DNA from: Phytophthora colocasiae
Taxonomy: Eukaryota; Oomycota; Peronosporomycetes; Peronosporales; Peronosporaceae
DNA length: 64,000 bases
Assembly: GCA_018806915.1 (NCBI GenBank)
Contig: JAGKQI010000013.1
Coordinates: 62,001 to 126,000, forward strand
Direction of reading: 5' to 3'
Of the stretch, positions 6,583-56,537 are shown piece by piece. A model generated the notes under the pieces. That model was not told the origin of the DNA. It made no database searches and saw only the letters and a list, made by a program, of their open reading frames with translations. A program made the translations under genes and the position numbers. The stretch's first letter is position 1. Each line of letters starts with the position of its first letter.

Positions 6583-8161
6583 CTACGTTCAAACGATACA
6601 AGTATTCCAGTGGCGACTCATCGGATCTCTTACGAGCGTGGTAGTATTGTCACGCCACCGAGACTCCGAAGCCACAGTACTGCGTCTGGAAGGCTTTTAG
6701 CAGATCACTCCATTTCAGCCTTGTAGATCGACTGAGATGTCTGTACCAGTTTCGCGCGGGACCAGTGAGGAGATCTACGAAGGTAAGGCACTTTTCTTCT
6801 TCCGATGCTTGATCTCTCGTGAAGGCTGACTTGACTTTACTAATCCATGATCTTGCTCGTTCCTCGTCGTGACCCTTGCCCGTGAACTCCTTCAGGTCCG
6901 ATATTGCAGAGATCCGGATCCGTTGAATCGTGCTGGATCCTGCCGTAACGGATGCAGCGGTGGTCGTCGCCGTACGCCGTGGAGCTAATCCGTCAAGGTC
7001 GTCAGGGTCATACTCCCAGTTCTCAGGGTGTGATCCTACTGACTCCATCTCGACGTCCCGATACACAGGATCCGCAGCTCGCGTCGTGGCTCGTGGAACC
7101 GTAGTCATCTGCCGTTCCTTCAAGACCTTGTCCATTGCTGATTGGAAGTAGGACTGCAGTCCGTCGGTGGATGCACGCGGCTGATCCACGGCACGGGGCC
7201 GATCATGCAGGGCATCCCGCGTTCGTGCTGGCTTAGCATCCGGGACATCAGTCGGCATACGGGCTACCAGCATCGCGGCACCTGTAGGGCCGAGTGCCAT
7301 ACGTCGAGATTCGGACGAAATGTTGGATCCTGCTTCAGACTCCGCCGAGGCGTATCGGGAGGATCCAGTCTGATACTCAGGGAACGTTAGCTTGGACACC
7401 AGATCCCGGGTCGCTCGTCGTTCACCAACGAGGGGCTTCAGTCGGTTGAATAATGAAGCCGCTGCGATACGGATCCTGTCGTGGTCCAAGCGGAAAAGTG
7501 AGTCCCCATCGAAAGCTCCTGCCGCGAAACCAGCTTCCTCTAACAGGCGGAGGAGGTCCAAAGCGCTGTCTAGACTGTTCGTAGACTGCGCCGGCGCCGT
7601 GATCGGGCCGGTGAGGGATCCAACCAACTGGGGTTGTAGGATCCTCATCACCGGGTCTTCTCGGAGGAAGTCCTCGAGCGCGATCCGGCGATACGAAGCC
7701 TCCAGTTGGGTCGACGACCACTCCGATTTCACCACCGGCTTCTCATCGACATCAGATCCTGGGGCCCTCAGCTTCTTCCGCGCAGTCTTCGTCTTCTTCT
7801 TCGACGTTTTACCACCTGAGATCTGCGCGGGGGTGGTGGTGGTGGATGAAGATCCAACAGCTTTCGTTGCTGAATCCTCACCCGGCGGACCAAAACCCGC
7901 GTTCCAATCCGCGGGGGTCCCCGAAGGGACCTGGGGAGGAGGGGGAGGTTTTTCTTCCGAGTCCGTTGCCAGACTCGCCTCCTTCCTGTCGACAGAGCTC
8001 CTCCCAGGGCTCTGTCGATCCGTGGATCTAGCGATCAGCGGTGCTGACGGCGATCCAACGACCGTCGGCACTTCTTCTCCCGGTTCTTCCTTCACTTGTA
8101 CAGGCTCTTCGGACTCACGGTGATATCCGCCGTCCCCAAAAGATCCGGGCACGCGTACCAT
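6583..8161 (-). pseudogene. gag N-terminal half, second tandem copy
   Basis: The ATG is at 8161, directly after LTR B, and begins MVRVPGSFGDGGY. A Glu/Pro/Ser-rich N-terminus is followed by a retrotransposon gag domain near 6650-6900 (FTGKGHDEERARSW, then a FVDLLTGPARNWYR stretch). A TGG-to-TGA change at about 6650 stops this copy before the LTR junction, where the first copy reads Trp. By eye, this nonsense change and one Pro/Leu change (near 7208) are the only differences from the other copy, so the duplication is very recent. Confidence 0.75.
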
Positions 8162-12944: not shown

Positions 12945-15077
12945 TTCTTCACACGCCCGGTAGAAGAAAGAACCTTACCCCCAGAGAGCGTGCTGAAGCT
13001 GTCGCCTTCCTGCTTGGCGCCAGTAGCGAAGCTGCAACCCCGACAAGGCGCCATTCGGGAGTGTGCAGAAAAGTTTGAGTGCAGTGGCGACCAGATCTCG
13101 CGCCTTTGGCGCCGAGCGGTCCAAGACATCCAGGCGGACAACCCAATCAATTACGACAGCGGCAGGAAGTGGAGGAGCGGACGCAAGTCGCTCCTGACCG
13201 AAGAGTTCCGTCACGACCTCAACCATGCCATCGCACTTATCCCCCTCGAAGATAGGACAGAACTTCGCACTTTAGCGAGCAAACTCGGTATTCCTAAATC
13301 TACGCTGCATGACTCCTTAACCCCCCCGCTCTCAAGCCTATTTTGACCCCCCGGCAAGTCTTTAACATGTTGTATAATACTACATGTTAAGGACAGTCTA
13401 ATCTTGATTTTTGTATTACCTGTGATAAGTACGAGTGTAAAGTCTGTACTGCGGGAAGGCAGCCTGATTGCTTGCACATCGTGCGCAGCGCTATGTACCA
13501 GCGAAGTTGTCATATACACCTTCTCCAGTCTCGCAGGTGGGCGTATGTTGTATATACTGCGACTGGTTTGGGCCTTTTTATTTGAAGTTGACACAGAGCA
13601 AACATTTTTGCCTAGCTATGCCATGCTTCAGTTCCAGAGGGATTGAACATCATGCTGCAAGCAATCTTTTCTTTGCGATTGTAATCATCAGTGTTCCTAC
13701 TTGTCTTGTTCGCTACCATCGTCCTAACGCTTCTTACGACTCCTCCTCGCCCACCTCCTCCTCTTCCGCTTCCTCCTGCTCGTCTTTTTTCGCTTCTTCT
13801 TCTCCCTCCTGCTCGTCCTCTTTCTCTTCTTCATCTCCCTCCTGCGGCTCCTCCTTCTCTTCTTCCTGCCCCCTGTCCTCAGCATCTTGGTGGCCGCGTG
13901 GCCACCAAGATCCGGAGTCTTGTCACAAATCAGTGAATCTATCTGTGTCTTGGCCTTAGCACTTTTCTGGCTTTTCTTGTTACAATATTCACCTACCCGC
14001 GTGCATTTCACGGTTTTTAACATGTTGTATTATACAACATGTTAAGAATAAGCCAATTCTGGTGTGGACCACTAATGTAGTCATATACAACGGTTGAGAG
14101 CGGGGGGGTTAATGGCTGGTGTGTTTCGCGTTCACACTGCTCGAGCTAAGCCAATGCTTACAGATGAACAACGAGTTGAGCGAGTGAAGTTCGCAACTGG
14201 ATTTGTGAAATCGGCGTCTGGAAGCAGAATGATGTTTGACAGCATGATGGAGTATGTGCACTTAGACGAGAAATGGTTCTACTTAAAGAAGGACAAACAG
14301 CGGTTCTATTTCGGAGAGCAAGAGGAGGACCCTCACTTCACTTTGAAGAACAAGAACTATATTGTGAAAGTGATGTTTTTGTGCGCTGTGGCACGTCCTC
14401 GTTGGGTTGCTAAGGAGCGCTGCGTGTGGGATGGAAAGATTGGTCTGTGTCCATTCGCTGTGTATGAACCGGCGCAGCGATCTAGCAAAAATCGTGATGC
14501 TGGAACGTTAGAGCTGAAAACGTATACCGTGGATCGTGACATTTATCGACAAGCGCTTTGCCGGATGGTTTTACCGCGCATCAAAGCGGTATGGCCATCA
14601 GGTAAGCGTGTCGTGCTGCAGCATGATAACGCCAAGCCACACGTCGCCGCCGATGATCCCGAGGTGCTGGCCGCTTGTCGTGAGGGTGGTTGGGATGTGA
14701 AAATTAGCCCCCAACCGGCCAACTCGCCAGATTTCAATGCCAACGACCTTGGCTTTTTCGCTTCACTACAGTCGCTACTATACAAGAAGAAAGCTAAAAC
14801 TATAGAAGACCTAGTCGACAACGTTGACACTGCTTTCCGTCAGCTCGAGTACACTAAGATCGACAGTGTATTCCTCACGCTGCAGTCGGTGCTCCAGGCC
14901 ACGATGCGAGTCGACGGCTGTAACAAGTACAAGATTCCCCATCTGTCCAAGGACCAGCTACGTGGTAGCAACGGTTTGCTTCCGCTTTCCTTGGTCTGCA
15001 ACGAGAATGTGTACCGCAAGGCAATAGCCTACGTAAGTTCGGCCGAGCAGAAACCCACTAGTAAAAATCGAACTTAG
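12945..15077 (+). pseudogene. Mariner-like transposase, split by a MITE
   Basis: The N-terminal part (to 13320) has a helix-turn-helix region (RECAEKFECSGDQISRLWRR). The C-terminal part (14109-15077) is the DDE catalytic domain: VHLDEKWFY holds the first Asp, LQHDNAKPH the second and NDLGFFASLQ the third. The second and third Asp are separated by 39 residues, the DD39D spacing of plant-type mariner transposases. A 788-bp insertion at 13321-14108 interrupts it. Removing the insertion and one TTAA would restore the frame. A separate one-base frameshift near 13040 also breaks the N-terminus, where no in-frame ATG is found, so this copy is probably inactive. Confidence 0.85.
13321..14108. mobile_element. 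piggyBac-type MITE inside mariner
   Basis: This 788-bp non-autonomous element has perfect 15-bp terminal inverted repeats (CCCCCCCGCTCTCAA) flanked by TTAA on both sides (13317-13320 and 14109-14112), the piggyBac target duplication. Near each end is a palindrome of the form TTAACATGTTGTAT...: 13362-13390 (imperfect) and 14017-14045 (14-bp arms, 1-nt loop). The same palindrome borders the piggyBac element to the right, which suggests a shared transposase. The interior has a pyrimidine-rich CTCCT repeat tract (about 13738-13880). It encodes nothing recognisable. Confidence 0.85.
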
Positions 15078-21117: not shown

Positions 21118-24100
21118 ATGGCGCGCATCAGATCCACTGGACGCAAGAAACCTGCCGTTGCTCGACACGACGTCGACTTTCGACATCTCTGGAGGCAGCT
21201 ACGAGAGGTGGGATGGAGCTCCAGACGCCCCAAGGGCCTCGAGACCGACTGGACCTACATGAAGCCTGGCAGTTCGGTAGATGGCACGGTTGGAGTCGAC
21301 TTCTTTGTTGGTGAGGCTGCTGTAGTGGCGCATGTTATTGAGACCGGATTGCTGGTAGCTGAGGTGAGTCGTTCATTTGTGATTCGGTGTAACGGGGTTA
21401 CACGTACAAGTGGTTGTACCACTTGTAACTCTAACAGTTAGGATAACTGTTAGAGGTTGGAAATGGGCCTCAGACCTTGGTGTGCTGTACACACCAAAGG
21501 ATACATGGGCGAACCACATTATTGGATGGTTCGTGTGCATTTGTGCATATTATTGGTAGAAAGTAACGGATTTCTACCAATCACTGAGCAGAGTTTCTGC
21601 CAACCACACGTTGGCAGACCCTTTAGAAATAGATAACAAACAGTTTTAGGAGGTCCATAATTGGCTTATGCCAAATTCAATAACAGTTCTCATTTTACGG
21701 TATTTTGCAGTTTAATTTAGTTATATTTGATTTAATTATACTTATTTAAATAAGTATACTTAAATTAAGTCTATTCTAATTGCACGCTTCCTCATACACG
21801 TAAGCGCACGTGTACGCCACCTAATAGGTCTAGGTAGACCCATTACACCTGGTAGCACTTTGTAGTCCGTCCCACGACCGACTGCTGTTCGTTCGTATGG
21901 AGTCATACGAACGCGGGGTAGAGAACTCCCCAATGGATGAGGGATCCGCTGGGACCCCTCAAATGTCCGTGACGCGCACGGACTGCGCCCACCTGTCTGA
22001 TCCAGAGTGGGAGGCTCTCCAAAGACTCTCGCGAGTCATTGGAGAGGCAGCGGTAGCTACGATGCTTCGTACGCTATCGCCGACAGAGCAACACGGTGTT
22101 GCTCTGGGGTACATTGTTAAGGAGCAACGAGATAGTATCGAACATAGTGGCCAACCCGATCGACGAGGCGACCAAGGTCGTCACGTTCATGAAGGGACTA
22201 AGAGATGGTCCCATCAAAACATATCTCTTTCGAGAGTATCCGAACTCTCGAAGAGGCGATCAGCCTTGCGATGCAAGAGGAGTTTAGCCGGCGTCAAGCT
22301 AAACTCCATGCGAACGCGCCGAAGCCGGCGCGTCCTGTTGCGAAGACGGGAGGTCCGGAACCTATGGACCTCTCGAGTGCTACGACTGCTGGTCAACAGC
22401 AGCGTAAGAAGTCAAGGTTCGATATTACCTGTGTGGTAACATCGGTCACTATGCACGCAAGTGCACAGCGGGCGGGTGTTCAAAAAACGCCAAGGACCAG
22501 TAGGCGCGGGGCGTCCTACTGGTACAGGGAAGTCTTCGAAGGCTTGACTTCGAAGAGACCGACACGCCTCGCGGCGTGTTGGAGGTGCGGTTGGCAACAG
22601 GTGCCACCGTAAGGAGTGAGAAGCGCGTGGTCCGTGTGCGCTTCTCTTACAAACGAAGGACGTTTGTAGAAGACCTTATCGTCTTGGATCTAGACGATAA
22701 GTTCGACTTGGTATTAGGCATGCCGTGGCTTGCACGGCATGACCCGGTGATCAACTGGGAGAAGCGTACGCTCGTACGCTTCAACAACACATGCGCGACA
22801 GAGAGCGATGGCCCTGTCAGTGCTGCACATGCACCGGCCGGTGCATGTGAATCCCCAGTTGAGGCAGCAGCAGCCGCCGCTGCCTCCGATCGCCGCCGGC
22901 GACCATCAACGACTCCGAGAGTCGTTGGGAGAAAATGTGTGTCGACTCAGAAATCTGAGCCGAAGGGTCGCGGTCACATGAGTGATGGTCAGGTGAATGT
23001 GAATCACCTGACGCGTAAACATCTGAATGATGTTTGTCACATGAGTGATGGTCAGGTGAATGAGATTCACCTGAGAGAAGGTATTATACCGGTATTACCG
23101 GTATCCTTGGAGGTACTTCAAGCCCCCAAGGGTCGCGCCGACGACGTCGCGTCAACTCTGGGAGTTGACGAAGCAAATAATATTCGGGAACCGAAGGCGT
23201 GCGTCAGCTCTGGGAGCTGACGCCACTGGCGCTTCGCTGCTAGTTCCGGGAACTAGCGATCGGTCATCAGCTCCGGGAGCTGATGAGACGTGTATAGGCG
23301 AACAGTCGCTGCTAGTTCCGGGAACTAGCGATCGTACATCCGCTCTGGGAACGGATGATATGTGCGGTATTAAAGCGAACACTCGCCAGCGCAGGAAGCT
23401 GGCGAGAGCACGTCGACTCCGGGAGTCGACGATGCGGTTGCTTCCATCCGCTCCGGGAGCGGAGTGAGGCCCAGAGGTTCAGGGAACCGACTGCGCGGCA
23501 GGAGGTGCTGGCGGTTGCAAACGCCCAGCACCCGAACAACCTGCGTGCTCACGTGCAGCAGCGCTGCACGCGATGAGCGGCACTCAAGCCGGGCTTGATA
23601 GTGCGAGTCAGCGGAAGGAATCCGCTGACGATTGCGATAACGTCCCGTCCAAGGTGCGATGCCTTGGACGTGGAGCACCTGGAGCCGGGCTCCACGGTAG
23701 ACCTTCGCGGCGTAAGCTCAGGGAGCTGCGCGAGTCTCAGTCCGGGACTGAGACGGGTGTATCTGCACTGCAGACACCGAGTGTCGAGACGTTGAACGTC
23801 TTGACACGTACTGGTACTGGGTTACAGTACCAGAGGATGCGGTTGGAGAATCCGCCGACGAATTCGTCGGCGTTGACCGCACTTCCAACGATGAGTTGGA
23901 ATCGCTTCGCGCGGGACTTGTACGATGGACGCATCGAACAAATTTGCATTCTCTCGGATATCGAGAGAGTGGATCGCGAACCCGAAGAGCTGAAGCAGCT
24001 CGTCGTCGATGGGATCACTGAGGGTGATGACTCCCTCAGTGCGAAGACTAAGAAGCAGCGCTTCGAAGAGCAGAGTTGGGACTCGTTGAGGTCGAGTCCC

Positions 24101-27100
24101 TACTACGAAGTTCTGCGGGAGTACAAGGATGTACTCCCGGACGAGATTCCTTCGGAACTTCCGAAGAATAAGGGCGTACAGCACGAGATTGATCTCGTGC
24201 CGGGCACGAAGTACTGTGTTACACGGCAGTGGCCACTGCCGCGTGAACAAGTGCAAGCGATCGACGACTTCTTTGAAAGTCGTCGTCTTGCAGGTCAAGT
24301 GCGGGAGTCAAAGTCCCCGCACAGTGCTCCAACGTTCTGTGTGAAGAAACCACAGGGCGGCTGGCGCATCGTTCATGCGTACAACAAGTTGAACGATGCG
24401 ACGATACCGGCGCAGACGCCGATACCGCGAAAAGATGTTATCATCGATTCGATGGCCTTGAGCACTATCTTCAGTGCTCTAGATCTGCGTGATGGATTCT
24501 ATCAGATCCTCATGCGTGAGAGGGACATCCCTCTCACTGCGGTAAGCACTCCAAGCGGTATGCTTTGGGAGTGGCTCGTCATGCCACAGGGGCTTAAGAA
24601 CGCCCCTGCGACGTTCAATAGATGCGTGACACATCTATTGCGCTCGGTGCGCGACTTCGCACCAAGCTACTTCGACGACGTGTTCGTCCACAGCCGGGCT
24701 GTGAACGGGAAGACGGACATTGAGATGCACAAGGTGCATCTCCGGAAGCTGCTAGAGCTTATGAGGAAACATAAGCTCTATGCGAACCTGAAGAAGTGTA
24801 TCTTCGGGGCGAGCGAGATACCCGTGCTGGGGTGTCTCGGAAAGACGGCGTGCGCCCTGACCCAGAGAAGGTCAGAGTGATCAATGAATGGCCCACGCCA
24901 TCCAATGTGAAGGAACTGAGGCAGTTCATTGGGCTTGCCACGTACTTGTGCAAGTACGTGGAGAACTATGCGGGCAAGATTCGCCCGTTGTCACAGCTTC
25001 TTAAGAAAGAAGCTGAGTGGATTTGGACGACCGAGTGCGAGGAAGCATTCGGTGCAGTCAAGCAGGGCTTGACTGAAGCGCCGATCTTGGCCGTGGCGGA
25101 CCAAGATCGTCCATTCCACGTAGTGTGCGATGCATCCGACTTTGCAATCGGATGTGCATTGATGCAACACGATCACGAAGGGCGTGATCGTGTAGTCTAC
25201 TATCAATCGCGTCAGCTGAAGCCAGCTGAGCGTAACTATCCCGTACATGACAAGGAGCTCCTTGCCATGAAGTATGCACTCGCAAAGTTCCGAGTGTATC
25301 TACTTGGGAGTAGACCGTTCGTGGTCTATACAGACCACGCATCATTGCGTACGGCGATTAAGTCGCCGCACATCTCGCAACGTATGGCGAGATGGTTGTC
25401 CTTCTTCGCGGAGTACAACTTCCGGGTGGAGTACAAACCCGGAAGACTCAATGTAGTGGCCGACGCGTTATCGCGTCGACCTGACTATGCGGAGACGGTC
25501 GACGCCAACGCTGTTGGCGTCGTGAGGACAAGTGTGCCGTCGTCAACGTTGATTGACGACGTGAAGAACGCGTATGCAAGGGATGCAGACGCGAAGGGGC
25601 TGCTGGAGTTCCTCGCAGCACCTTCCGACGTGGCACGTCGGAAGCTAACCCCTCATCTTCGAGCTCGTGTACACCGCTATCGTGTACACGAAGGCCTACT
25701 GTTGTACAATGCAGTAGACGACAATGCGGATCGCATTGTCGTTCTGAATGATCATGACCTCCGGTTGAGGATCATGTTCGAGTATCACGATGCCCCCACG
25801 GCAGGGCATCCGGGTCGTGAGAAGACATACACTCTTCTCACGCGTGACTTCTACTGGCACCACCAGTACAAGTGGGTGCGCAAGTACGTACGTGCTTGCG
25901 AGGTTTGTCAACGCGTGAAGCCTGCGCAGTTCTCGCAGGCTCCTCTTCAATCACTACCGACTCCGTCGGAGTGTTGGCAGTCCATGTCCATGGACTTTGT
26001 CTTCGGTCTTCCGCCTGACAGCAAGCGGAGGACGGGCATCGTTGTCTTTGTGGACCGATTCAGCAAGATGGTTCATCTTGCTGCCGTCCCGGCTACTGTT
26101 ACAGCCGCGCAGACTGCGCGACTGTTTGTTGACATGGTGTTCAAACACCATGGCATGCCGCTCGACATTGTGTCGGACCGTGATCCACGCTTCACAGCGC
26201 GGTTCTGGCAAGAAGTGTTTACACTACTTGGTTCACAGTTATTAATGTCGACTGCGGATCATCCGCAGACGGACGGACAGACCGAACGTGTCAACCGTGT
26301 ATTGGGTGACACGTTGAAGAGCTACGCTCACTCGTTCCCGCATTGGAGCGAGTGCTTGCCGATGGCAGAGTTTGCCATCAACAACTCGGTGCATGCCTCG
26401 ACAGGGCATACACCGTTCTACGTGAACGCCATGAGTCATTCCACGATTGCCGAGCATGCTCGGCGGGGTAGCTTCCTCCTTAAGTGGGGGAGGATCTACG
26501 GTTGCGTCCGAACAACCGCAGAATGCAACTGATAGCAGCACACTATCAGCTGCGGTGACGCGTGCGACGTCTCGTTCGAGCAGGAACGAGCGCGCGATGT
26601 CTGTGCCGGGCACAGACATGAGAGATGATAGCGAGCAGGCAGGGCCTGCTGCTGACAAGGGCGACAAGCTGAAAGGATTCAGCTCGGGTGCGCTAGACTT
26701 TGTCCAGCGAAGACAAGCCGTCATACGGTTTGTCCAGGATGCTATCGCAGCTTCTGTCGATCGACAGAAGCTGAACGCTGATACTGTTGGTAGAGGCAAC
26801 ACAAATGAATTCGAAAAGGGTTCATTAGTTTTGTTAGCTACACAAAACCTACCTAGACATGCAGTGTCTGACTTTGGAGCAAGCTTGCTTGCTCCAAGAT
26901 TCATTGGGCCGTTCAAAGTACTTGGACGGCACTGCAACGCGTACCGGCTGGACATACCGTCCAGCATGAGGCTCCACCCGACCTTCTACGTCGGGCGGTT
27001 GAAGCCGTACGTGCAGCACGGACTACCTAGGGTTGGTAGTCCGACTGAGAAGTGCGAGAGGCCTGGAAGGCCTTCTCGAGACCGTCGACACGGTCGATCA

Positions 27101-30100
27101 ACCGGTTCACTCTCGTCCCAAGACCGGACGAGAGGTTCGAGGCAGTCTGAGCTGCCTCGCAGACCTCAGCACGGAGGACACGAACCTCCTGCTTCAGAGC
27201 AGCTATCTCAGCGCTCTGTGTCTGCTCCAGCGCAGCAACTCGATCGTGCAGGGCACGATCGTCATGGTCATAACGTTGGCCATGTGGAGGGAGTGTTCCC
27301 ACCCCCTCCGCCGCCGTTGCGCGACGCGCGTGGAGCGATTCGCTGGATTGTGGAGCGGATCGTGGCTCATAAGAGAACAAACTCTCAAGGGGTTCGTTTT
27401 CGTATTCGTTGGAGAGGATTTCCTCCCCATCGAGATACATGGGAGCCGCGGAACGTCCTGATGGAGGACGTTCCGGAAATGGTGAGGGCGTACGAAGCCC
27501 ACCATAACTTGCAGGGTTAAACCCTGCACGAGGAGTGCTGCGGTCAGCCACAGCACTCGGAGCTTCGCGTGGCACAATACGACCACGGAGTTCCTTGATG
27601 TGATCGGGTACACGGACGACCGTGTACCCCAGGAGATCACTTTCGGTAAGGCGTGTTGCCAAGGGTGGGCAACACGGACAGGGTGTGCCAAAGGGAACGG
27701 CACATGGGATCCCCGCTTCCATGGACTGATCATGGAGGCGTTCACACTTACCACGCGTAGTGTAAGTGTAGTAGCGATCGCGAGCCGCAGCAACGCGCTC
27801 GCGATATGCCTTCGGGCCTTTGTTGAAGTTTTCAACAAAGGCGTTCCACGACTGACAAAGTGCCTGCCACTCTGGCACTTTGCTCTTGCGTGAAGTCTTC
27901 TTCGCTGCATAGTATCGGAGCTTGTGGAAGAGCCCGATATAGTAGTCGCGTCTTTGAGTCTCGGACTCAAAGACAACCTTAGCGGCGACGTCGTCGTCGT
28001 TGATACTGTTGCATGAGTACAACAGTATCGGGTTCGGTGGTGAACTAGCACCGAACCGGTCATGGATTTCTGCCTCAGTAGGCATCCATGGTGTGCGCAC
28101 TGGCGGATCAGTGCGCGGTGCAGTGAGCGCCCTCGACATGGGGGACGCTTCATCATCACTGCGCGGACGCTTCGAGCTTGAAGCGTCCGAGGCCTCATCA
28201 CGAGGTCGTCGAGATCCCACGGGTGGGTCTGACGTGTCTTCGGACGAAGACACGGGAGCGGGAGCTTTGACATCAACCTCCCCCTCCTCGACATCCTCCT
28301 CATAGTCGAGGATGTCTTCGTAGTCCTCTCCAAAGAGTTCTTTGAGAGGGACAGCAGGATTCTTAATCTCTGCTAGAGAAGAAGACTTCTTCTTCTTCTC
28401 ATGCTTCTCCTTATGGAGAGCATGGTACTTGGTGACAGAGAGCTTCTCTGTCGGACCGCTTGAAGCAGCAGTGCTAGTGAGCACTGCTGAGGTCGTTGTT
28501 CCTGCTGCAGAGGCAGCAGGTGAGGCTGCGCGTCCGCAGTAGCGGACGGAGACGTGGGCGTTGGCGAGTCCATTGCGAAATGAACTCGGATTTCTCTTGG
28601 GAACTTGACGGTCTTGTCAAGTTCTGTTGATTGACGTATCGAGACCGATACGTCGAATCTTAACGGGGGGATGGTGTAACGGGGTTACACGTACAAGTGG
28701 TTGTATTTGTAACTCTAACAGTTAGGATAACTGTTAGAGGTTGAAATGGCTCAGACCTTGGTGAGCTGTACACACCAAAGGATACATGGGCGAACCACAT
28801 TATTGGATGGTTCGTGTGCATTTGTGCATATTATTGGTAGAAAGTAACGGATTTCTACCAATCACTGAGCAGAGTTTCTGCCAACCACACGTTGGCAGAC
28901 CCTTTAGAAATAGATAACAAACAGTTTTAGGAGGTCCATAATTGGCTTATGCCAAATTCAATAACAGTTCTCATTTTACGGTATTTTGCAGTTTAATTTA
29001 GTTATATTTGATTTAATTATACTTATTTAAATAAGTATACTTAAATTAAGTCTATTCTAATTGCACGCTTCCTCATACACGTAAGCGCACGTGTACGCCA
29101 CCTAATAGGTCTAGGTAGACCCATTACATTCGGAGTAGAATGTAAGACTAAGGCTGATGATTGTTGCAGGAAGAGGCGTCTGGAAACGACGACAACTTCG
29201 AGAATCAGAGCCATAGTGATAAAGAGGGTGGGGCTCAACGTGAAGCGCAAGCCTGTGAAGATGAAGTGCAAAACGAGAATTTGGTGCGGGCGTCCCAGAT
29301 CGACACTAACATGGAGCTCTCCCAACACACAATGGATGCATTATTTGGATCTCCAACACCGAGTGAGGTAGCGCTATCACAGGGAGCTGTAGCACGTGCA
29401 TTTGACATTCCGCAAGTTGGCCTTCAGGAAGATCTTTCCGAGCCGGATGTACTGGAAGGGGCAAGTCATTTGCAACACTTGTCTGGCGCTTCGGGGGCTG
29501 AAAGTTTGGAGTTAGACGTGCCTGTAACCAGGCAACTTCGACCGCGACGCCAGTTCAAGCACGATGTAAACTTTGTAGAGGAGAACGAGAACCCAAGTGA
29601 TTACGAGCAGCTGAGCTCGGGAGAAAGTGACGGTGATACGATAGCAGACAATGATGATGATCCACTGCAGCATCGAGGAATAGATGTAGGTGACGATGAC
29701 ATCTCGGATACGGATGCTCCGGAACTGGACGAAGCATTTCTGGCCTCACTAAGCATAGGAGACGGTGAAGGACTAAGCCGAGAAGCCCTCGCAAGAAGAC
29801 AAGAGGCTCTCCGGGCAATGCGCTGGACGCCACCTTCATCGAACTTCGAATTCGAAGCGGACGCGTACCCGGGGCTTACTGGTGAAGAGGCACAACCCGT
29901 TGCTGACCTACGGAAGCTATGTAATTCACCCCTCGAAACCTTCTTTTTCTTCGCACCGAAGTCTATGTGGGTCAATATTTGTGAAGAATCGAACCGTTAC
30001 TGCTCGCAGCAGATCCTCCCCAGAGCTGAGCGGATGCGCGCCAAGCAGACCGAGCGACGAGGGACGCCAACGGAAACGGTGAAGCAAATACGGCGTCGGC

Positions 30101-31813: not shown

Positions 31814-32310
31814 AAACGCAATGATCAGCTATCTTGTGTGTTGTTATAAAATAAACTTTCTTGAACCGACGTACCTTTTGCCTTATTTCTGAAATGATTG
31901 GGTTCAGAGTCCAACTATCTTCCGCACTTCCTTTTCTGCAATCCCTGAAGTTACGACTTTGAATCTTCACTGGACAAAAGAAAGTTGTGTATCTTACGAC
32001 TAAGCCTAAATTTCACCTGTACAAATCTATATACCTAGCCGCATGTGGATAGTCTACGACTATACAAACGCCTTGATGAAATGTACGTCATAAGTTACGA
32101 CCTTCGCTTAGCGGTTCCGAGGTACGAATCCTGGGAACCAAGGGGTTAATATTGAGACAGCTTTCCGACAACGCACGGCATTAGTTTTTTACTAGGAGGA
32201 AATGTTACCAAAACACGTAGGACCAAAACACGTCAACAAAACGGCTCAGGTCTTAAGGGTTAATCTCTTGAACGGGAGGCTTCCTGATTAAGATCTTGCG
32301 TGCGCTCGAC

Positions 32311-33270
32311 ATGGGGAACAGGTTCGTAGGGGCGAGATTCCTCATTGCAGTGGACGGAGGCAATCTCGACAGTGTTAAAAGCTTGGTTGAGCAAGGCGTG
32401 GACATCGATACCTGTTTTTTTAATGGCAGTACTCCGTTGGTGTGGGCTGCTGCACAGGGTCGTCTACATGTTGTTCAGTATCTCGTTGAGCAAGGTGCAG
32501 ACAAGGAGAAACAGGATTACTACGGTCGCACCCAATTGATGGTATCTGCTGGGCTGGGTCATCTAAACGTGGTTCAGTATCTTGTTGAACAAGGCGCAGA
32601 CAAAGCAACGCAAGACAAGTTCGGCATCTATCCATTCAAGTTAGCGGTAAAAAATGGCAAGTTTGAGGTGGTTCGGTATCTCGTTGAGCAAGGCGCCGAG
32701 ATCAACGAACCGGATAGCTCTGGGTTCACTCCATTGGTCGTGGCTGCCATAAATGGCCATATCGATGTGGTGCGGTATTTCATTCAGCGAGGTGTCGATA
32801 TAGAGAGCGAGAGTTATGGCCAAACGCCGCTAATGTGGGCCGCTGGGGAAGGCAAACTAGATGTGGTGCGATACCTGATAGAGCAAGGCGCAGTCAAGGA
32901 CCATCGGGACAGCAGTGGCAGGACTCCATTGATGTGGGCTGCAGCGCTAGGGGAGCTTGATGTGGTGCAATATCTCGTTCGAATCGGAGTCGACCCAACA
33001 GCCATCGACCATTATGGCAACTCAACTCTGCTGCATCTCATGCTGGCCGAAGGTATTAGCGAAGACGAGCTTCTTCTAGTTGCAGAATCGCTGCTGAAAC
33101 GCGGAACACCCCTTCTACTGTCCAATAGTGAAGGCAAGTCTGTGAAGTCGGTCGCAATGGCGAGTGGATTCAATCGTGTTGCTAGGTTGGTGAAAGAATA
33201 CACAGCCAAGTCACAACTTCATTCTCGAGGTGAGCTCTCAGCTATTCCTGTCTGTAAGCCAATGCTGTAG
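32311..33270 (+). CDS. Ankyrin-repeat protein
   Basis: The ATG at 32311 gives 319 residues. About seven ankyrin repeats run from residue 8 to 245, with the usual GxTPLxxAAxxGxxxVVxYLxxxGAD pattern (for example GSTPLVWAAAQGRLHVVQYL). The C-terminal part is a helical tail without a known domain. Ankyrin repeats bind proteins; there is no signal peptide or membrane segment, so a cytosolic or nuclear adaptor is likely. The repeats resemble each other closely, which suggests recent internal duplication. It starts 160 bp after the right end of piggyBac element 2. No intron is needed. Confidence 0.8.
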   Translation: MGNRFVGARFLIAVDGGNLDSVKSLVEQGVDIDTCFFNGSTPLVWAAAQGRLHVVQYLVEQGADKEKQDYYGRTQLMVSAGLGHLNVVQYLVEQGADKATQDKFGIYPFKLAVKNGKFEVVRYLVEQGAEINEPDSSGFTPLVVAAINGHIDVVRYFIQRGVDIESESYGQTPLMWAAGEGKLDVVRYLIEQGAVKDHRDSSGRTPLMWAAALGELDVVQYLVRIGVDPTAIDHYGNSTLLHLMLAEGISEDELLLVAESLLKRGTPLLLSNSEGKSVKSVAMASGFNRVARLVKEYTAKSQLHSRGELSAIPVCKPML

Positions 33271-56039: not shown

Positions 56040-56537
56040 TGTCTTACAAGGAGCGAGGACGATTGACTAATGCCGAGGCATGGGACGCTCGCAGATTGTG
56101 ACGCACGTCGAGACCAGAGGGATTTTTTGGTAGAGATTTGTTGGGATGCCGTCTGGCGATGGAACGACTTGCGCTTTGTATTGAAGTGCATTTGGATCCA
56201 AGTCCTCACTGATCTTCCAGCACAGGCGTTTGACTTGCATGCCAGAAATGGTGACGCCGTTGCCGTATTCATTCTCACATTTGCCTACGTCAGGAATAAA
56301 CTCAGGTGAGCCGGGCACAGAAACGGCTGAAGCACTAGCACCAGCAATGTGTTCCTGCATTTACTTGCTGTAGGTGTGGAAGGAACTCCAAGAACCTTGG
56401 ACATTACAGATCGTTTACAGTAACTCCATGGCAAATGACACGCTGCGATAGTAGCGCTATCGTGCAGCACGATAGCGCTACTATCGCAGCGTGTCATTTG
56501 CACGATTCGTGCTATACTCGACGTAACCCACGCAGCG
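56040..56537. other. Intergenic with small ORF and long palindrome
   Basis: Between two glycosyltransferase genes, a minus-strand open frame with an ATG at 56360 runs 97 codons to 56067. It is not recognised, has four Cys residues and no signal peptide; coding is uncertain. Upstream of it is the perfect palindrome at 56431-56501. Confidence 0.35.
56431..56501. repeat. Perfect 35-bp inverted repeat with 1-nt loop
   Basis: The left arm 56431-56465 and right arm 56467-56501 are exact reverse complements, separated by a single A. It lies 37 bp after the stop of the glycosyltransferase at 56538, so its RNA would form a 35-bp hairpin in the 3' untranslated region. No flanking target duplication was seen. 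Confidence 0.95.

Follow-up and report, generated by a model that had tools for sequence, protein, structure and literature searches.

Why is a retrotransposon of the oomycete Phytophthora colocasiae packed from end to end with short perfect hairpins? The element lies at 21388-29128 of the window, which denotes the whole 64,000-nt stretch of DNA analysed here (contig JAGKQI010000013.1, positions 62,001 to 126,000, forward strand; assembly GCA_018806915.1), and it is a Ty3/gypsy retrotransposon with long terminal repeats (LTRs) and a chromodomain. It has been recoded, in its coding parts mostly at silent sites, into approximately 12 different perfect hairpins per kb, and the recoding extends over the LTRs, the sense genes and an antisense open reading frame (ORF). 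The reading that we favour, with a probability of roughly 0.4, is that selected local hairpins hold sense and antisense RNA apart and away from Dicer.

Stems were counted when their arms were perfect over at least 8 bp and their loop was at most 8 nt. The element contains 92 such stems in 7,741 bp, compared with a mean of 0.94 (maximum 3) in 100 dinucleotide shuffles of the same sequence and 21 stems in the 56,259 bp of window flanks (0.37/kb), which confirms both the dense stem-loops described in the original prediction and its claim that neighbouring sequence lacks the property. Synonymous-codon shuffles, named there as a possible refutation, do not reproduce the density: across six coding segments with 300 shuffles each, the means are 0.05-0.48 and the observed counts are 1, 10, 16, 17, 8 and 12. 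Only the 306-bp gag segment, with one stem where codon shuffles reach 2, shows no significant excess. Stems of 8, 9, 10, 11, 12 and 13 bp occur 18, 33, 21, 15, 4 and 1 times, respectively; the lengths peak at 9-10 bp and end at 13 bp, whereas chance stems drop about four-fold with each additional base pair. All 18 stems first given as examples are present at their coordinates, and 17 of them reach the thresholds used here, the stem at 23017-23035 having 7 bp. An initial estimate of one stem in every 20-40 bp is too dense. The 90 non-overlapping stems amount to about one per 86 bp, and a relaxed search (stems of at least 7 bp, loops of at most 16 nt) yields 132 in 7.29 kb with a median centre spacing of 45 bp.

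The stems were thought to occur alike in the LTRs, gag, pol and the antisense ORF. All of these regions are covered, but unevenly, with 5.2 stems per kb in the integrase C-terminus, 5.6 in gag, 12.7 in the reverse transcriptase (RT), 13.0 in the 5´ LTR and 19.9 in the linker. Even spacing, as a sign of design, was not found, the coefficients of variation of the gaps being 0.947 and 0.951 compared with 0.988 and 0.984 for random placement. A fixed span of about 24 nt was considered as a small-RNA ruler; the span is 23.7 ± 3.5 nt, with a weak anticorrelation between stem and loop (r = -0.30). The predicted folding energy lies far below that of dinucleotide shuffles, with a mean z of -4.49 on the plus strand and -5.49 on the minus strand, and 36 of 36 windows fall below -2 on both strands. 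The corresponding values are -0.23 and 0.00 for the window flank.

The genome assembly (92.5 Mb in 105 contigs) was searched for the window element and its copies, here family A, for the related families B1 and B2 (together family B) and for five other gypsy families, including one termed N1. The other 36 copies of family A carry a mean of 11.9 stems per kb (9.3-13.5) where they match the window copy; their non-matching parts, confirmed as element sequence for the copy L042 alone, hold 155 stems in 13.5 kb. Approximately 380 bp of gag that are absent from the window copy are present in L042 (positions 7244-7623), and stems were observed there too. The eight loci of family B, at 60-61% amino-acid identity to A (two representatives), contain 75 stems in 26.3 kb (2.8/kb), and their folding z values on the plus and minus strands are -0.79 and -1.29 in B1 and -0.67 and -1.01 in B2. 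The original prediction also named an equal density in other gypsy families as a possible refutation. At 13 loci of the five other families, with 38-42% amino-acid identity, a single stem was found in 42.9 kb; their folding z lies between -0.58 and 1.2 (one locus each), and their 3´ stretches (one locus each) hold four stems in 23.0 kb in total. The hairpin property is thus confined to one lineage and graded within it. No relative was confirmed in viral contigs. At locus L041, a piece of family-A LTR (7799-8001) was observed just downstream of a diverged B-like element, whose pol has few stems.

Individual stem positions are not deeply conserved between A and B. Only one of nine mapped B2 stems and two of 13 mapped B1 stems share their centre with a stem of A (shifted controls: means 0.09 and 0.13, maxima 2). 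Stem positions have therefore turned over between the families, and the conserved feature is mainly the density of hairpins rather than any one hairpin.

The amino-acid identity of family A to far relatives in the RT is 0.669 for codons within stems and 0.666 for codons outside them, and in the RNase H-integrase region the identity to relatives is 0.617 and 0.640, respectively. The comparison bears out the original claim that protein coding was kept, and the coding sequence appears to have been preserved while the DNA turned palindromic.

Variants among the 37 copies indicate how the stems persist. Variants were divided into singletons (one copy), which would be mostly post-insertion mutations, and shared variants (at least two copies), which would be mostly transmitted; stems were taken from any copy, so that broken stems count, and sites with fewer than eight copies were removed. 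Per opportunity, singleton silent variants amount to 0.172 in arms, 0.184 in the 12 nt next to a stem and 0.143 at greater distance. In contrast, shared silent variants amount to 0.037, 0.144 and 0.115, so that in arms they are almost as rare as shared amino-acid-changing variants (0.024-0.026). Stratified by 300-bp bins, 12 shared silent variants fall in arms compared with 32.3 expected (p = 1.7e-5), and the singletons match their expectation (56 compared with 56.2). Stratification by mutation type gives an odds ratio of 0.30 (p = 5e-4). Depletion of shared variants with no depletion of singletons argues that the stems are maintained during element replication, and the hairpins are probably under selective maintenance.

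Paired changes point in the same direction. Between 23150 and 23465, eight hairpins are diverged units of one peptide-coding repeat, in disagreement with the original view that the stems of this region (23.1-23.5 kb) are not one repeat copied. Both members change in six of the nine pairs, and 95.2% of the cells pair compared with a mean of 80.9 after shuffling. None of 500 shuffles reaches the observed value in four of five measures, although these shuffles overstate independence because the seven distinct rows are kin; the fifth measure, which counts further pair types, does not exceed the shuffles (8 compared with 8.2). The encoded peptides shift along with the stems (e.g. SALGAD, STPGVD and LVPGTS), and the unit at 23337-23357 retains a C.A mismatch. 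Paired, amino-acid-changing substitutions thus preserve the hairpins of this repeat. Among 15 B1 stems that align well to B2 (four skipped), 123 of 135 pairs are unchanged, nine are changed on one side and three on both sides; all three of these are Watson-Crick, and 0.42 double changes were expected. The reverse view (13 stems, five skipped) gives 111 of 118 unchanged, five one-sided and two two-sided pairs, with 0.17 expected.

Family A stems with one inner mismatch carry G.T in 10 cases, A.C in 14 and other mismatches in nine (0, 3 and 5 in B1; 1, 3 and 7 in B2). G.U accounts for 7.4% of the predicted pairs on the plus strand of A and 6.1% on the minus strand, compared with 13.9% and 11.8% in shuffles; in N1 and the flank, the share matches that of their own shuffles (16.4/15.1 and 13.5/14.0, respectively). 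Sharing is no more frequent among silent variants that create G.T than among silent variants that create A.C (4/17 and 6/18). Taken in sum, G.U is not clearly favoured over A.C, as if the hairpins matter on both strands. The strength of the stems is tuned as well. GC content declines with stem length (rho -0.33; +0.06 in shuffles), and the number of hydrogen bonds varies among stems with a spread of 2.68, less than in any of 1000 simulations that decouple GC from length (3.22 ± 0.15). The stems seem to lengthen until they are strong enough, which points to selection for stability. The fraction of unpaired G and C in family A is 0.269 and 0.289 on the two strands, the lowest of eight sequences (0.292-0.423 in the others; 0.311 in its own shuffle); the effect is modest.

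The antisense ORF offers a possible reason for symmetry between the strands. Of the candidates scored, 506 are homologous to it at E <= 0.001, every organism-named one among the 120 listed belongs to Phytophthora, and 71 of 88 genomic matches scored lack an internal stop. In family B2 an antisense ORF lies at the same place and encodes a distantly related protein (BLASTP 5e-5), and B1 matches the antisense ORF of A at 1.4e-4; the five stemless families yielded no relative in the 3´ stretches sampled, which may stop short of the element ends. No Pfam family scores above the cut-off for the proteins of A, B2 or ten homologues. A weak AlphaFold model (predicted local distance difference test score 59.8) suggests helices at about 165-303 and a long helix at 407-480. 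An extra opposite-strand ORF near the 3´ end is shared with retrotransposons such as maize Grande; unlike that type, the protein is restricted to Phytophthora among the named matches listed and matches no Pfam family above the cut-off.

Given the antisense ORF, sense and antisense transcripts probably coexist and would form long double-stranded RNA (dsRNA). Selection would then act on the local folding of RNA from both strands, with stable hairpins leaving few unpaired stretches on each strand where complementary RNAs could start to anneal. Stems of at most 13 bp should themselves be too short as Dicer substrates, and long dsRNA that feeds silencing would thereby be avoided. Watson-Crick-only stems are expected under such strand separation, since the complement of a G.U pair is an A.C mismatch. 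The precedent is the Qbeta system, in which, according to PMC6913131, dsRNA is a replication dead end and structure throughout the RNA lowers its formation; PMC5362092 adds that most genes are not replicable for want of such structure. The Qbeta replicase RNAs that follow this "fewer unpaired GC" rule are likewise structured throughout, coding regions included, and family A leaves few G and C unpaired on each of its strands, as strand-separation systems of this type require. Structure there limits the pairing of complementary strands, and in the element the link to dsRNA avoidance would be analogous, although the Qbeta system relies on an RNA replicase, in vitro or in phage, and the element is a nuclear retrotransposon. 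In P. infestans, small RNAs in both orientations along gypsy elements are described (PMC3522703). The fuller statement, that some 90 sequence-independent, strength-tuned and strand-symmetric hairpins stop sense/antisense pairing and so avoid RNA interference (RNAi) while permitting an opposite-strand gene, is put forward a little more tentatively. The original prediction named small-RNA and packaging roles and drew no link from the stems to the antisense gene.

Several observations weigh against strand separation. Antisense RNA along the whole element is an assumption: the ORF covers only 27027-28484, and the stems are everywhere. Family B has the antisense ORF yet few stems, and A and B against the rest form a single phylogenetic contrast. 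The same account of P. infestans reports small RNAs without antisense bias and notes that non-typical processes beyond the dsRNA-Dicer-Argonaute route may act (PMC3522703). Broken pairs per copy relative to the window copy are more often G.T than A.C (69 and 28), and with all variant classes pooled, G.T states are shared somewhat more (25 shared/57 single compared with 17/54 for A.C; no significance test), a lean that would suit RNA structure on the sense strand. The arms show no deficit of amino-acid-changing variants (p = 0.32). Beyond the five sense-coding segments, shared variants are not depleted in arms either (11 shared/34 single, compared with 24/79 outside arms), and loops show a weak deficit of shared variants (4/16, p = 0.049). 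The random spacing of the stems also counts against it, as do loop inversions, which reveal template switching at stems. A stability threshold for template switching could mimic the tuning of strength. The argument from the variant deficit against switching is weakened by the absence of a deficit outside the sense-coding segments, and would weaken further if converted versions die through protein change. A mixture is also conceivable, in which switching supplies stems and selection retains them.

Mutational drive is the strongest rival, though unlikely as the whole cause: template switching by the RT, or by host repair, would perfect near-palindromes, and the stems would be by-products kept where they are silent. 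Strand switching at hairpins is known to leave inverted loops, and five of 60 pairs of loop versions in family A copies are exact reverse complements; one further inverted loop, GA compared with TC, separates B1 from B2. The Watson-Crick perfection of the arms and the random spacing fit such a process, and an RT-specific occurrence would account for the restriction to some families. Correction without bias would convert and revert equally often and should therefore leave the number of variant sites undiminished in arms, which is at odds with the depletion of shared silent variants. Compensated versions are few in family A copies (three stems with more than one perfect version), and divergence from B2 is not more one-armed than in random windows (0.70 compared with 0.73; 25 stems, with low power at 36% divergence). 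Stem density in the RT equals that in the 5´ LTR, and stem length is tuned to GC. Of the template switching proposed in the original prediction, the loop inversions thus stand, and changes confined to one arm were not seen at this low power. Like template-switch quasi-palindromes in general, the element has perfect arms and inverted loops; unlike them, it combines element-wide density, loss of shared silent variants and strength tuning.

Selection on DNA, with hairpins in single-stranded complementary DNA or cruciforms that protect, compact or mark the element, appears improbable. It would fit the strand symmetry without a clear preference for G.T over A.C, the coverage of the LTRs and all gene regions, and maintenance only during element replication. 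However, no candidate function or binding protein for DNA hairpins was found, the antisense protein having no Pfam family above the cut-off, and other gypsy families manage without stems.

More doubtful still is selection on the sense RNA alone for packaging, stability or shielding from small RNAs, akin to the ordered genomes of some RNA viruses, with which the element shares a folding energy far below shuffles along its length. The paired changes and the lean towards G.T described above would fit this explanation. The low G.U share on the plus strand, the occurrence of A.C as often as G.T in one-mismatch stems, the lack of sparing of silent variants that make G.T and the minus strand, which folds at least equally well, speak against it, and the element departs from the viral pattern in its strand-symmetric, Watson-Crick-only short hairpins and in being a retrotransposon. 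The selection envisaged in the original prediction therefore gains from the silent-variant deficit and the tuned strength, but a structured sense genomic RNA by itself fits poorly. An origin by chance, from base composition or through repeated copying of a single unit is practically negligible, since both kinds of shuffle refute it, the 36 further copies show stems, and the arm sequences differ except in the eight units of the 23.15-23.47 kb repeat, the only ones mutually related.

The architecture of the element is that of the chromoviruses (Metaviridae), with LTRs, a target-site duplication, the domain order protease (PF08284), RT (PF00078), RNase H (PF17917/PF17919), integrase (PF17921/PF00665) and PF24626, and a chromodomain (PF00385). 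The LTR pair differs by five substitutions and six gap columns, and the window copy carries frame breaks. The RNase H region was scored at 135 genomic places, all with 92-100% amino-acid identity, a lower bound because scoring covered the best candidates only. The closest Phytophthora pol relatives have 82-88% amino-acid identity; the element is set apart from other Ty3/gypsy chromoviruses by its hairpins throughout, relatives in other species having been compared as proteins only. Species with pol or antisense proteins in the databases include P. cactorum, P. sojae, P. ramorum and P. citrophthora. Features are listed in Table 1. Elsewhere in the window, a 35-bp perfect inverted repeat with a 1-nt loop lies at 56431-56501, far from the element, two adjacent perfect stems of 12 and 14 bp lie at 13884-14045, and a 324-aa ORF at 32296-33270 (plus strand) resembles ankyrin repeats by eye.

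Table 1. Coordinates of the element, its frames and selected stems in the window.
Feature	Coordinates	Strand
Left target-site duplication, TTCGG	21383-21387	
5´ LTR, 460 bp, 6 stems	21388-21847	+
Field of 90 non-overlapping perfect stem-loops (at least 8 bp, loop at most 8)	21388-29128	+
gag reading frames, broken in window copy	21897-22612	+
Aspartyl protease frame (PF08284, E 3.1e-06)	22576-23220	+
10-bp stem, 3-nt loop in both orientations (CGC 6 copies, GCG 6)	23052-23074	
Eight diverged peptide-repeat units, each a hairpin	23150-23465	+
Reverse transcriptase frame (PF00078)	23573-24880	+
9-bp RT stem, centre shared with a B1 stem	24181-24200	
RNase H and integrase frame (PF17917, PF17919, PF17921, PF00665)	24796-26532	+
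11-bp stem, 5-nt loop in both orientations (AAGGG 27 copies, CCCTT 2)	25167-25193	
10-bp integrase stem, centre shared with a B1 stem	26061-26083	
9-bp integrase stem, centre shared with a B2 stem	26133-26152	
Integrase C-terminal SH3 (PF24626) and chromodomain (PF00385) frame	26447-27520	+
Longest stem, 13 bp, no loop	26748-26773	
Antisense ORF, 485 aa, conserved in Phytophthora	27027-28484	-
3´ LTR, 454 bp, 4 stems	28675-29128	+
Right target-site duplication, TTCGG	29129-29133	

No retrotransposon of this kind was found in full-text literature searches, whose coverage is thin for subscription journals; the element type is known and, as far as these searches go, the whole-element hairpin recoding of a retrotransposon is undescribed. 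If strand separation is the cause, the family would show a counterpart of the Qbeta "fewer unpaired GC" rule at work naturally in a eukaryote, and a new escape route from silencing by dsRNA. If template switching is responsible instead, it would document, in nature, how a reverse transcriptase turns coding DNA into palindromes. Under either reading, the silent sites of this family bear a dense second layer of information.

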